A DNA stretch of 31,987 nucleotides. Origin: a virus. The notes beneath the pieces are model-generated. The model had not been told where the DNA came from. It made no database searches and worked only from the letters and a program-made list of their open reading frames with translations. This document shows, in pieces, positions 15,238 to 19,693 of this stretch (within the stretch, counting starts at the first letter, position 1; the number at the start of each line of letters is the position of its first letter). The stretch spans positions 1-31,987 of the IMG/VR virus record IMGVR_UViG_3300034279_002194. One strand, written 5' to 3'. The position numbers were made by a program, and so were the translations under genes.

Positions 15238-17862
15238 TTACCTCATCAATCCAAGAGTTTCTTGTTTTGAACGCATTCCTTTTGTAGAAGCGTTAAAATT
15301 AGGCACTTTTGAGGTGGATGGATTACTTCCACTACCTCTTCTACCTCCCATTCCACCACCAGCAACTACTACTTTTGGTTTTTGTTTTATTGGTGGAGAT
15401 ACTGGTTTTCTTTTATTCAATTCTGCTTGTTTTTTTGCAATATTTGCTTGTGTTGCACCTCTTGCTTTCAGTGAAGAAATATTTCCTTTAGATGCTTCCT
15501 CGTATTTCTTTCTTGCATTAATAGCATCAATATTTTTATACGCACCAGGATTTATCATTCTTCCAAGTGCTTCAAGTGGGTTAGATGTTCCTGCTTGAGG
15601 TCCTCTAACATAAACAACTTTACCACCTCTCATTGCTTTATAACCAACAAAGGGTCTTCCCTTATCATCAGTCATTATTTGAGTTTTAGGCATATCCTTA
15701 AAGGACTGCTGTTTCAATCCATAACCACCTTTGATTGCACCACCTTGATATGCATTAGCGCCCAATCCGCCCAACATTGTTCTTGCCTGTCTTGATAATC
15801 TCTCTGAACCAGTCTCTCCCCCCATCTTAATAACTTTATCTAATATTCCACCAAAACTTTTTTGGTATCTTTCCTCTTTGTCTACAAGTTCTCTTAATTT
15901 TTCTATTCTGTTTGTAAGTTTTTCTGGAGTTTCTTTTCTTGCCTTTTCAATGCTAGAAGCAAGTCTCTTTGCTTCCACATAATCCAATCCACTTTGCATT
16001 AAATAATTTAACAAAAGTTCAATACCAAAAGATTTAAGATTACCCAATCCCCCAGGAACTTTAGTTCTAGCAAGAGCACCACCAGTATAAGGAACAATAG
16101 CACTACTTGTGGGTGTTGGTGGCGTCATACGAAGAGGACTTGATTGTCCTCTTAAGAAATAATCAGGTGAAAGAGGACTTGATTGACCTCTAAATGGATT
16201 GTAATTAAATCTATTTTGTAATGAAGAAAATCTTCTAAAATCTCCAGGTCTAAATCTTGATTGTGGAGTTGGTCTTGTGCCCATTCTATATCCAGTTTCT
16301 CTTAAAGAAGATCTATTACTTTTGATTTGCTCTGATAATATATTTTCGGCATTCTGTAACGCTGATATTGATTTTGTTACTGATCCTGGTTGTGGATTAT
16401 TAACTGCTTTTATTTTATCTGCTACAGATTGACGAATAGCATCAAGAGCATCATCAGCGCCGTGATGCCCTTCAAATATTCTAGAAAAATTATTTTCACC
16501 ACCAACCATTTTTTCAAAATCAGGAACTCCATTTAATTTTTTAAATGCCTTAAATAGGTCCTCTTCTGTTCCATATTGTCTAAAAGCTCTCGCAGCACTT
16601 CTGAGAGTATCATCATTAGGATTTGCGCCATAAGTAGAATAAAGAGGTATATCACCAACCAATCCTCCTCCAGCAGCATAAACAGATTCACTTTTAAAGG
16701 TAGGTTTATTTGTTCCACCACCAGCAGCATTCATTGCTTCCAGAGTATCAACACCATACTTCTGAACAGCACCACGAGACATTACAAACTCACCGTCGCT
16801 TAACCAAGCAGGAATTTTATCTACTCCCTTTTCACCACTTACCATTCCATTAAAGAAATTTCTAGCACCTCCCAATAACCCAGAAAAATTAAACCCTCCA
16901 CCAGAAAACTTTGGCGCACTTATAATTCCTCCACCAGCACGTCCTTCAACTTTCTGATCCTCACCACTAAATGCTCTTTGTGCAAGTTGAGTTGCAGCAT
17001 ATCCACCTGCAGCGACTGCAAGAGCAGTTTTTGGATTACTTTTTGCAAATCTTAAGAGAGCAGGAATTGATTTTGCAAGTTTTGCAATTCCTGATAATGC
17101 AATATTTGTTAGTACCCTAATACTTTTTCCAAACTTTGTTCCGAATAAAATAAATCCACCAAGAATTGCTGGACCCCAATCACCCAAAAATCTAATTATT
17201 GATTTTACTTTATTTGCATTATTGGGGTCGCCCAACCATTCTACAAGTTTATAAACAATTCTTCCAAGTATTACCGTAGTAAAAAATTGAAGAATTTTAT
17301 CTAGTAAAGATTTTACTGGAGCAATTATTTTTTCTGCTGCTTTTTTTAAACCTTCAAATCTTTTTTCTAACTTACTTTCAGCAAGTCCTCTTTTCTCTTG
17401 TTCTGATTTTCTTTTTTCATAAGCAGAAGCATCATCTGATATTTTCTTTTGTTTTACAACAATATCTGCAATTGAAATTACAGACTTTACAATTGCAGAT
17501 ATATTTTCTTCTACACCTTCTCCAGTTTTTTGCGAAATTCCTATGTATTTTTGAATCTGATTAGAGGAAGATCGTATAAGAGAACCTTTTCTAAGTCCAT
17601 TTCCACCACTTGCAGAAGGTGAAGGAGGAGGACTTTTTCCAGAAAAAGCAACTGACGATTTTGCAGTTTTTGTACTTACAATTTTATCAATAAATTGTTC
17701 AAAACTTATTTTATTTTTTCTTTTAGAAAAACCTTCTTTTAATTCTTGTTTGGATAATTTTTGCCCACCAATAGTGTTTTCTGTAAGGAGTTCATTTAGG
17801 TAATGTTCATACCTATCCTTACCAAAAAATTTAGAAGCATTTATTGCTTTAGAATTGGGCAT
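15238..17862 (-). CDS. Tail tape-measure-like protein
   Basis: 874 aa, start MPNSKAINASKFFGKDRYEH. It has a Lys/Glu-rich coiled-coil (about 135-180) and a hydrophobic segment (FFTTVILGRIVYKLVEWLG, about 190-210), followed by Ala-rich helices. Near residues 345-385 is the hallmark KGVDKIPAWLSDGEFVMSRG with AVQKYGVDTLEAMNAAGGG. I know the IPA.LS.GEFVM..AV..YG motif from many phage tape-measure proteins. Pro/Ser/Arg-rich low-complexity and a basic C-terminus (GGGMGGRRGSGSNPS) follow. Its position directly after the gp26/gp51-like chaperone genes is where a tape measure is expected. In T4 this role belongs to gp29, but I cannot align it. The start overlaps the gp51-like ORF by 14 bases. Confidence 0.75.
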   Translation of the reverse strand: MPNSKAINASKFFGKDRYEHYLNELLTENTIGGQKLSKQELKEGFSKRKNKISFEQFIDKIVSTKTAKSSVAFSGKSPPPSPSASGGNGLRKGSLIRSSSNQIQKYIGISQKTGEGVEENISAIVKSVISIADIVVKQKKISDDASAYEKRKSEQEKRGLAESKLEKRFEGLKKAAEKIIAPVKSLLDKILQFFTTVILGRIVYKLVEWLGDPNNANKVKSIIRFLGDWGPAILGGFILFGTKFGKSIRVLTNIALSGIAKLAKSIPALLRFAKSNPKTALAVAAGGYAATQLAQRAFSGEDQKVEGRAGGGIISAPKFSGGGFNFSGLLGGARNFFNGMVSGEKGVDKIPAWLSDGEFVMSRGAVQKYGVDTLEAMNAAGGGTNKPTFKSESVYAAGGGLVGDIPLYSTYGANPNDDTLRSAARAFRQYGTEEDLFKAFKKLNGVPDFEKMVGGENNFSRIFEGHHGADDALDAIRQSVADKIKAVNNPQPGSVTKSISALQNAENILSEQIKSNRSSLRETGYRMGTRPTPQSRFRPGDFRRFSSLQNRFNYNPFRGQSSPLSPDYFLRGQSSPLRMTPPTPTSSAIVPYTGGALARTKVPGGLGNLKSFGIELLLNYLMQSGLDYVEAKRLASSIEKARKETPEKLTNRIEKLRELVDKEERYQKSFGGILDKVIKMGGETGSERLSRQARTMLGGLGANAYQGGAIKGGYGLKQQSFKDMPKTQIMTDDKGRPFVGYKAMRGGKVVYVRGPQAGTSNPLEALGRMINPGAYKNIDAINARKKYEEASKGNISSLKARGATQANIAKKQAELNKRKPVSPPIKQKPKVVVAGGGMGGRRGSGSNPSTSKVPNFNASTKGMRSKQETLGLMR

Positions 17863-18043
17863 TGCTCATCTGCTGTTTTTGTTTTAACTCTTCTTCTTCA
17901 AGATGTTGTTGCAATAATCCAACATAGATATCCCTTTCCCAGGGAATCATATTCTCAATTTCCCATAATGAATATTTATGATATTGCATCAACGAAAAAT
18001 TAAGTTTGAAGTAATTTTCAAGATCCATATGGACCATACTCAC
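17849..18043 (-). CDS. Small gp51-like hub-assembly ORF, in -1 frame to gp26
   Basis: 64 aa if started at the GTG at 18043 (GTGA overlap with the gp26 stop); ATGs also exist at 18037 and 18028. The core LMQYHKYSLWEIENMIPWER followed by DIYVGLLQQHLEEEE matches a short helical protein I know from T4-like marine phages annotated as hub assembly catalyst (gp51-like), although T4 gp51 itself is much longer. It sits between gp26 and the tape measure. The frame is -1 relative to gp26, and a T TTT TTC heptamer precedes the gp26 stop, so it may be made as a gp26 fusion (see findings). No strong Shine-Dalgarno is seen for independent starts. Confidence 0.75.
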   Translation of the reverse strand: MSMVHMDLENYFKLNFSLMQYHKYSLWEIENMIPWERDIYVGLLQQHLEEEELKQKQQMSNAQF

Positions 18044-18759
18044 CCGAAAAAAGATGCTAACCCTTCTAGAACAACTTCACTTTCAACATTAGTTTTTGGA
18101 TTTACAACTTTAATTGTATGAGAAAGTTTCGGCATTGTTTCAAAAAACTTTTCAATATCTTTAAATTGAGAAGAATTCATTGATTCTAAAAAGTCATTCA
18201 TTTCCTTTTTAGTCACATCAGATGTTGTCCAAACTTCTTCTTCAGTAAAAATTGCACCAATACAAGATGCAATTAGTTCAAACGATTGATCCATTGCATT
18301 TTTTTCACTAAAATCAAAATTATTTTTAATAAATTGATCTAGAGAAGGATACTTCATTTCCATCATAATAGAATCATCAAGTTTAATTCTATTTGTATGA
18401 TTTTCATTTTTTTGAACTTTGATATCATCAAGATTTATCTTTACAGGAACTTGAGTTTCATTATCATCTGGACAAATAATATTAACTTCAAGTTCTTCTC
18501 CAACAGATTTACCACGAACATTTAGGAACAAATATTCAATATCAAAAGTTGGTAATGATTCTACTTTAATATTCTTGGTTAAGATACAATTCTTTATAAC
18601 AGTTTTAATTGCTGTTGTAATTTGCTTAATATCTTCACTCTCTAAAGCAATAACAAGTAATTTTTCTTCCTTAACTAAAAAAGGTCTATATTTAATTTCT
18701 TCTCCAGTTGATGGCAACTCAAGTTCATAAGTTGGTGCAGAAATCTTTGGTAAAGGCAT
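18040..18759 (-). CDS. gp26: Baseplate hub assembly protein gp26
   Basis: 239 aa, start MPLPKISAPTYELELPSTGE, then EIKYRPFLVKEEKLLVIALE. This opening (P.YELELPS...I.YRPFLVKEEKLL) is characteristic of the T4-type baseplate hub protein gp26 (the family I know as T4 bacteriophage base plate protein). The middle has RGKSVGEELEVNIICPDD, the expected RGKSVGE motif. In T4 gp26 is needed for hub assembly. It is expressed from a short leader after gp54 with a GATAAATA late motif about 30 bp before the ATG and an AGGA ribosome site. Its 3' end (TCT TTT TTC GGG TGA) carries a slippery heptamer that could extend it into the next ORF. Confidence 0.85.
   Translation of the reverse strand: MPLPKISAPTYELELPSTGEEIKYRPFLVKEEKLLVIALESEDIKQITTAIKTVIKNCILTKNIKVESLPTFDIEYLFLNVRGKSVGEELEVNIICPDDNETQVPVKINLDDIKVQKNENHTNRIKLDDSIMMEMKYPSLDQFIKNNFDFSEKNAMDQSFELIASCIGAIFTEEEVWTTSDVTKKEMNDFLESMNSSQFKDIEKFFETMPKLSHTIKVVNPKTNVESEVVLEGLASFFG
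18046..18052 (-). promoter_or_regulatory. Candidate -1 ribosomal frameshift site T TTT TTC
   Basis: On the minus strand the last gp26 codons read TCT TTT TTC GGG TGA. The heptamer T TTT TTC fits X XXY YYZ in the gp26 frame. The following ORF is in the -1 frame with no stop between. An AGAAGG (18067-18062) lies nine bases upstream, and a weak five-pair stem with an ATAT loop (18035-18022) begins ten bases downstream; both are arrangements known to stimulate -1 slippage. Slippage would give a 303-aa fusion (238 gp26 residues, Arg, then 64 residues). Not experimentally shown. Confidence 0.6.
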
Positions 18760-18787: not shown

Positions 18788-18795
18788 TATTTATC
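18788..18795 (-). promoter_or_regulatory. T4-type late promoter motif GATAAATA
   Basis: The minus strand reads GATAAATA, matching the NATAAATA form of the T4-like late -10 element. It overlaps the stop codon of gp54 and lies about 30 bp before the gp26 start, leaving a leader of about 20 bases. Late motifs of this kind need only gp55/gp33/gp45, and gp33 is encoded in this window. Confidence 0.45.
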
Positions 18796-19693
18796 GTGCT
18801 AATGGACCAATGTTCCTACCAACATATGGAAGTCCAGATTCAACAAAACGAGAATTAGAATTTACTGCACCAATAATTTCTTCACCCTCAAAAACTTGAA
18901 GAGAATTTCCAGAAGATAAAGCATTTTGAATGCTCAATCCACCAGTTGTATCTACTCCAAATTCTGGATTAACAAGTCCCTGATAAGCGGCAACATTAAA
19001 TCCTGCTTGTTCTAGAGGGTTATTTAGAGAAGACTGGGGATTTTGGTCATCGGTTGGAGGAGGAGATCCATTAAGTTCTTCAACAAAATATCTAGTGTAT
19101 GCAAAAGAAACAGTACATTTAAGTAGAGAAGAAGAATCATAAGAAATAGGCATAGAAGATATACTAATTGGATATGCCTTTAAAAAAGTATATGTAAGTT
19201 TTGTTTTATAATCTTTTTCAAATTTAACAATACTAAACTGTGATTGATATTCTTCCGGGTATCTAGTAGTGTAATAGAAATTTGGAGATTTAAGACCTAC
19301 TGGAGCATTATTGGGACCACCAGAAATACTCTCATTCATAATAAATTTAATCCAAGTTTCAAAAAATCTAATCGCAGTATAAGAAGTATCAACATAAAAA
19401 GTCAAATCTATTCTATCATCATATATTCTACGATATGCGTGTCTTTCAGTAACTCCTGTATAATCATTATTAATTTCAAGAGTTGCTAAAGAAGATCCAG
19501 GTAAAGTAGCTTCACTACAAGCAAGTTGAAGTTTATCCTGAATGACGCCAAAATTCACTCCATTTTTACTCATTATAGATGAGAGAGGAGTAGGAACTGA
19601 AAGGAAAAGATCATAGTGCGAAGTAGTTGCAGGTTGCAATATAGCACTTTTTATTTCAGATACGTTTCTTGGTTTTGGCGTAGAAATTGCCAT
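18791..19693 (-). CDS. gp54: Baseplate-tail tube initiator gp54-like
   Basis: 300 aa, start MAISTPKPRNVSEIKSAILQ. The fold signature is that of T4 tail-tube-like proteins: a strand AYRRIYDDRIDLTFYVDTSY, then FFETWIKFI, YRYPEEYQ-type text (TRYPEEYQSQFSIVKFEKDY), and KAYPISISSMPISYDSSSLL followed by KCTVSFAYTRYF. The last motif (AYP..IS.MP.SY.....L.C.V.F.Y.RY) is typical of tube and tube-initiator proteins. In T4, gp54 sits on gp48 and starts tube polymerisation. gp48 is encoded divergently nearby, and gp26 follows downstream. A gp19 tube-subunit assignment is unlikely because of length and context, but cannot be excluded by eye. Confidence 0.75.
   Translation of the reverse strand: MAISTPKPRNVSEIKSAILQPATTSHYDLFLSVPTPLSSIMSKNGVNFGVIQDKLQLACSEATLPGSSLATLEINNDYTGVTERHAYRRIYDDRIDLTFYVDTSYTAIRFFETWIKFIMNESISGGPNNAPVGLKSPNFYYTTRYPEEYQSQFSIVKFEKDYKTKLTYTFLKAYPISISSMPISYDSSSLLKCTVSFAYTRYFVEELNGSPPPTDDQNPQSSLNNPLEQAGFNVAAYQGLVNPEFGVDTTGGLSIQNALSSGNSLQVFEGEEIIGAVNSNSRFVESGLPYVGRNIGPLAR

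Follow-up and report, generated by a model that had tools for sequence, protein, structure and literature searches.

The stretch of DNA analysed here (31,987 nucleotides, hereafter the window) is the IMG/VR fragment IMGVR_UViG_3300034279_002194 of a marine cyanomyovirus-like phage of the T4 type. It encodes, on the minus strand, a gp26 protein that is closest to Kyanoviridae records and that belongs to the T4 gp26/gp51 family according to its matches to phrog_150 and PF12322 (E 4e-77). The genes and sequence elements of the locus are listed in Table 1. The gene is preceded by a clear tail tube gene, and the long ORF that follows was tentatively assigned to the tape measure protein on the basis of weak PHROG matches and of synteny with phage phiM12. 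No tRNA genes were found in the window. AlphaFold2 models, built with IMG/VR rows only, are confident for gp26 and predict a helical fold (pLDDT 79) for the C-terminal domain encoded downstream. A Foldseek comparison of the gp26 model with the PDB gave no significant match. The tail chaperones listed, 2OB9 (HK97 gp13, ranking second to third with an E-value of about 0.8 (0.77)) and 3KLU, had E-values between 0.8 and 3.9, a likeness of the modelled protein to solved tail chaperones that is only suggestive. The fusion protein described below, compared as a profile with the sequences of solved structures, yielded only weak and irrelevant matches.

Table 1. Genes and sequence elements at the gp26 locus (positions in the window).
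Feature	Position	Strand	Support
Tail tube protein (gp19-like), directly upstream of gp26	18791..19693	-	PF23849 E 7e-17; phrog_45 E 2e-36
gp26 (predicted TAC-N), 239 aa, product of standard decoding	18040..18759	-	PF12322 E 4e-77; phrog_150 E 1e-80; AlphaFold2 mean pLDDT 86
Predicted frameshift fusion (TAC-NC), 303 aa	17849..18759	-	phrog_150 5-281/282, 308 bits vs 272 for gp26 alone
Probable upstream stimulator: SD-like AGAAGG, ending 9 nt before the heptamer	18062..18067	-	Anti-SD pairing peak; 106/156 lineages
Slippery heptamer U_UUU_UUC, zero-frame P-site UUU, A-site UUC	18046..18052	-	T_TTT_TTN kept in 335/337 loci and 33/33 held-out loci
Probable downstream stimulator: 5-bp hairpin GGUCC-AUAU-GGAUC, starting 10 nt past the heptamer	18022..18035	-	Covariation; MFE minimum
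-1 frame extension, predicted C-terminal domain of TAC-NC, contains the 64-aa "gp51" ORF	17849..18048	-	phrog_634 E 2e-28; also the last part of phrog_150
Probable tape measure protein, 874 aa	15238..17862	-	Several tape-measure PHROGs matched weakly (E 4.5e-5 at best); same position in annotated phiM12

The 3′ end of gp26 reads GCA-TCT-TTT-TTC-GGG-TGA, with the stop codon at 18042-18040. The first-pass annotation had proposed that programmed -1 frameshifting at the in-frame T TTT TTC heptamer found there joins gp26 to a downstream ORF of 64 aa, as in the lambda G/GT pair, and the elements on which it relied were all verified in the sequence. The short ORF (18043-17849, minus strand) lies in the -1 frame relative to gp26, opens with the GTG of an overlapping GTGA, and is not separated from the heptamer by any stop codon in its frame. 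The SD-like AGAAGG is positioned nine bases upstream of the heptamer and the hairpin, a weak one, ten bases downstream. Translation gives 239 residues for gp26 and 303 for the fusion, as predicted. The first codon past the slip is CGG (18046-18044), the junction of the fusion reads ...GLASFF-RVSMVHMDLENYF..., and the stop codon of the extension ends at 17849. The last 14 nt of the -1 extension (17849-17862) are shared with the beginning of the probable tape measure gene, an arrangement that suggests translational coupling; similar short overlaps are present in P-SSM2 and S-PM2.

In-frame T_TTT_TTN is found 13 times in the 10,099 open-frame codons of the window, so the probability of meeting one among the final few codons of any particular gene is about 1%. 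Conservation of the heptamer and of the -1 phase among relatives had been set beforehand as the refutation test of the proposal. The gp26 loci were gathered from IMG/VR and from annotated phages; the 337 analysed correspond to 271 unique sites and to 156 clusters (lineages). These loci are phylogenetically related, and conservation is hence quoted as counts without a probability. The gp26 frame contains T_TTT_TTC (317) or T_TTT_TTT (15), followed by a -1 frame open for more than 35 codons, in 332 loci. The heptamer is also present in two loci on incomplete contigs, and a Rhizobium phage carries T_TTT_TTA overlapping T_TTA_AAC, bringing the loci with a slippery site to 335 of the 337. Phage contigs found in bacterial and archaeal genome bins served as a held-out set, in which T_TTT_TTN, with C, T, A or G as last base, is present in all 33 informative loci. 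A chance origin of the heptamer is excluded by this conservation in the same phase. Heptamer and relative frame are kept down to about 30% gp26 identity, in phages of the Kyanoviridae and of Pelagibacter, Vibrio, Aeromonas, Stenotrophomonas and Sinorhizobium. The slippery site is absent only from a T4-type Shigella phage and from Vibrio phage K475. In the latter a short downstream ORF starts at TAATG, so that coupling may have taken the place of frameshifting. In the Rhizobium phage (RHph_I1_18; L094:2199-2253) the two overlapping heptamers are U_UUU_UUA and U_UUA_AAC, and the zero frame runs on past the site before it stops.

The P-site codon is TTT in 156 of 156 clusters and the codon before it always ends in T (AGT, GAT, TCT, AAT, GCT or GGT), while elsewhere in the same genes 74% of Phe codons are TTT and 51-78% of Ser, Gly, Asp and Asn codons are T-ending. 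Three lineages have a Leu codon (TTA/UUA) in the A-site and still keep U6, so what is conserved is the RNA and not the Phe-Phe dipeptide. In the codon preceding the slip, read in the zero frame, nucleotide diversity is 0.63 and 0.65 at the first and second bases and 0.00 at the third. Past the slip, -1-frame codons 0-8 have a constrained second base (0.28) and a free third base (0.59), a coding signature that starts with the first codon. The pattern of diversity thus places the switch of coding frame at the slip site. No stop codon interrupts the extension, which is 58-71 codons long, in any of 155 lineages, and the encoded peptide is conserved from the slip site onwards (FFR[IVL]xLxHxxLExYYxxNFALMQHHKYSLxExENMxPWERxxY).

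The 64-aa ORF matches phrog_634 and the last part of phrog_150. Residues 5-281 of the 282 in the latter profile are covered by the fusion and residues 13-281 by T4-type gp51, while coverage by T4-type gp26 ends at 235. The fusion aligns over nearly its full length with T4-type gp51 (hhalign E 8e-9), and this end-to-end alignment implies that T4 gp51 is equivalent to the fusion encoded in a single gene, and that the cyanophage "gp51" corresponds to the C-terminal domain of the fusion. Sequence comparison therefore indicates that the cyanophage ORF is most likely no gene of its own but encodes the C-terminal domain of a protein made by frameshifting. T4 gp26 has the N domain only and T4 gp51 the N+C layout of the predicted fusion. 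The two T4 genes are separate and divergently oriented, whereas the only arrangement found in the window is the split one, in -1 phase. The N+C layout of gp51 is found there in the predicted fusion alone, with no long form encoded T4 style as one uninterrupted separate gene; membership of the family is established by homology, not by gene layout. The T4-type gp26 examined has no slippery site and is followed by gp25. Note that the T4 record (L375:1803-2090) annotates a gp26′ arising from internal in-frame initiation. Based on these relationships gp26 would be a short tail assembly chaperone (TAC-N), the fusion its TAC-NC partner and T4 gp51 a one-gene TAC-NC. The first-pass annotation had called the pair hub chaperones; "chaperones" is retained, but "hub" is better replaced by "tail assembly (tape measure)".

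Across the 156 lineages, pairing with the anti-SD sequence is strongest 8-10 nt before the heptamer, at -6.1 kcal/mol against a background of -1.2 kcal/mol. The window hairpin alone is thermodynamically weak, and the whole 48 nt segment folds with -8.4 kcal/mol (z = -0.75). Among 49 distinct relatives in the window's group, 98.4% of the cells of the 5-bp stem are paired, 3 of the 5 pairs display compensatory two-sided changes, and the covariation score was reached by none of 500 shuffles. Over the 156 lineages a minimum of predicted folding energy is located directly after the heptamer (mean -9.6 kcal/mol versus about -4.7 kcal/mol elsewhere in gp26), with a mean dinucleotide-shuffle z of -2.07, compared with -0.30 at a control position. 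The register of the stem differs between lineages: a P-SSM2-like group has an 11-bp stem with two-sided changes at two pairs, and an S-RSM4-like group a stem of up to 13 bp that is mostly paired and whose covariation exceeds that of shuffles only little.

These data lead us to conclude, with high confidence, that gp26 and a 303-aa fusion are produced by -1 programmed frameshifting of the lambda G/GT kind. The lines of sequence evidence that favour this explanation as the best one are the slippery site, its phase and conservation, -1 frame coding, the SD-like peak, the structure peak after the heptamer, covariation, the homology of the fusion to T4 gp51, the location of the pair between tail tube and probable tape measure genes, and the missing start codons detailed below. 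Points that weigh against it are the weak hairpin of the window, the GTG or ATG that overlaps the gp26 stop here and in some relatives, the non-significant structural match of gp26 to HK97 gp13 and the lesser covariation in the S-RSM4-like group. Most ribosomes would read gp26 normally to yield TAC-N. A minority would slip back by one base at U_UUU_UUC, the P-site and A-site tRNA-Phe re-pairing from UUU/UUC to UUU/UUU, bypass the gp26 stop codon and add about 65 residues encoded in the -1 frame to make TAC-NC. The slip would be favoured by the SD-like site 8-10 nt upstream and by the hairpin just downstream. If the two proteins behave like those of lambda G/GT, the tape measure protein would be coated by the N part and the C domain would recruit tail tube subunits, the ratio of TAC-N to TAC-NC being presumably set by the efficiency of slippage. 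That slippage occurs, and that its products act in assembly, is what we infer from the sequences.

Frameshifting may coexist with some synthesis of the C-terminal domain alone. Start codons for a stand-alone gp51 are present in about 60% of lineages, including the window (a GTG, then an ATG), and it is possible that in this phage and in some relatives a GTG or ATG overlapping the gp26 stop supports some independent initiation. They are not conserved and often absent, though, and no strong SD is found at the right distance; any stand-alone product would therefore be lineage-specific. We consider the production of both TAC-NC by frameshifting and a separate C-domain wherever a lineage has a start codon improbable, if compatible with the preferred reading, of which it is a variant.

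The assumption behind most database annotations, that two proteins are made and that the 64-aa gp51 is translated only by itself from a GTG or ATG near the gp26 stop by termination-reinitiation coupling, fares worse. It accommodates the GTGA overlap of the window, the TAATG-type overlaps of some relatives and the separate annotation of gp51 in many records. However, in 65 of the 156 lineages the segment that runs from the upstream -1-frame stop to the 15th codon after the heptamer, and covers all of the domain's conserved N-terminal part, contains no ATG, GTG or TTG, and in 13 of these 65 the -1-frame stop directly abuts the heptamer. The start-less lineages include the sequenced phages DSL-LC03, Aeromonas 65 and Vibrio D479; lacking any such codon, they cannot make the conserved domain by conventional initiation. 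Coding for the conserved FFR[IVL] begins ahead of any start codon, U6 conservation and covariation are left without a role, and in the window AGAAGG lies about 18 nt before the GTG, which is too far for normal initiation there. Annotated starts also vary among relatives, or gp51 is left unannotated. With the starts missing, stand-alone gp51 was rejected as the main product and we regard it as very unlikely. The inconsistency of the "gp51" annotation is apparent in seven annotated phage records, which put the start just behind the gp26 stop, put it about 50 or 90 nt further from that stop, or omit the ORF altogether.

A still less likely source of the fusion is slippage of RNA polymerase on the T6 tract, which would generate a mixed mRNA population and allow the fusion to be made by standard translation. 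A homopolymeric tract does exist, extended to 7-9 Ts in some lineages, but most lineages have exactly six Ts ended by a C. Six Ts is short for bacterial transcriptional slippage. Furthermore, the run always begins at the third base of a codon (T_TTT_TT), a phase for which a polymerase has no need, and the hairpin and SD-like site sit at ribosomal spacing. The long, phase-independent homopolymer expected for this mechanism is thus not what is found. Finally, a sequencing error or a local pseudogene is ruled out by more than 300 independent loci.

The lambda gpG/gpGT frameshift and its counterparts in other long-tailed phages were reportedly described by Xu, Hendrix and Duda in 2004. The preferred reading, -1 programmed frameshifting, shares with that system a downstream ORF in the -1 frame, with no stop between, that provides a C-terminal extension, and a site and phase conserved across divergent relatives. 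It differs in its heptamer, U_UUU_UUN, and in its conserved SD-like site and hairpin; no sequence relation between the chaperones of the window and those of lambda was detected. According to Atkins et al. (2016, PMC5009743), G/GT frameshifting is found widely among long-tailed phages "except T4". The first-pass annotation knew of no description for T4-like phages, but Vladimirov, Gautam and Davidson (Virology 566:9-15, 2022), who reportedly identified the tail chaperones of T4-like phages, are cited for poly-T -1 slippery sequences in T4-like TAC-N genes (PMC12846349) and for T4-like phages with separate short and long genes instead of frameshifting (PMC10885494). As far as these citing papers tell, the gene family and the TAC-N/TAC-NC idea are the same as here. 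The principle of frameshifting in T4-like phages thus appears to be already in print as a prediction, which limits the novelty of our finding. In phage Adele (PMC12846349) a -1 slip likewise takes place on a conserved run of Ts close to where TAC-N ends, with a -1 frame open throughout, but the motif is GTTTTT and the families are others than that of the window's phage (Vandenendeviridae/Andersonviridae).

The more interesting parts of the present analysis are an annotation error in cyanophage records and the turnover of stimulators. In hundreds of cyanophage genomes a gene 51 ("baseplate hub assembly catalyst") is listed in its own right, although the ORF most likely encodes only the end of a frameshifted protein. 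Correcting this would place most marine phages of the T4-like kind within the tail-length scheme known from lambda, and would point to an evolutionary switch between one gene with frameshifting, in cyanophages and others, and two separate genes in T4.

Clusters without the SD-like site have a stronger downstream structure than those that carry it (-10.4 versus -8.4 kcal/mol; P = 0.006, uncorrected for phylogeny). We propose, tentatively and as a view more doubtful than probable, that the stimulators are interchangeable and evolve by turnover: the slippery site stays fixed while the register of the hairpin shifts (5 bp in the window, 11-13 bp in other lineages) and loss of the SD-like site occurs mostly in lineages with a stronger hairpin. 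If so, the conserved trait would be a tuned rate of slippage rather than a particular RNA structure, and the turnover of these two stimulators, seen in well over a hundred lineages, would amount to a natural experiment on how this rate is kept constant. To our knowledge, stimulator turnover around a fixed slip site has not been documented for T4-like phages. Two smaller signals were also detected in the 156 lineages. Anti-SD complementarity rises again within gp26, to a weaker peak some 30-42 nt before the heptamer, and the predicted folding energy dips a second time, to a smaller minimum that lies within the -1 extension, about 90-100 nt past the heptamer.
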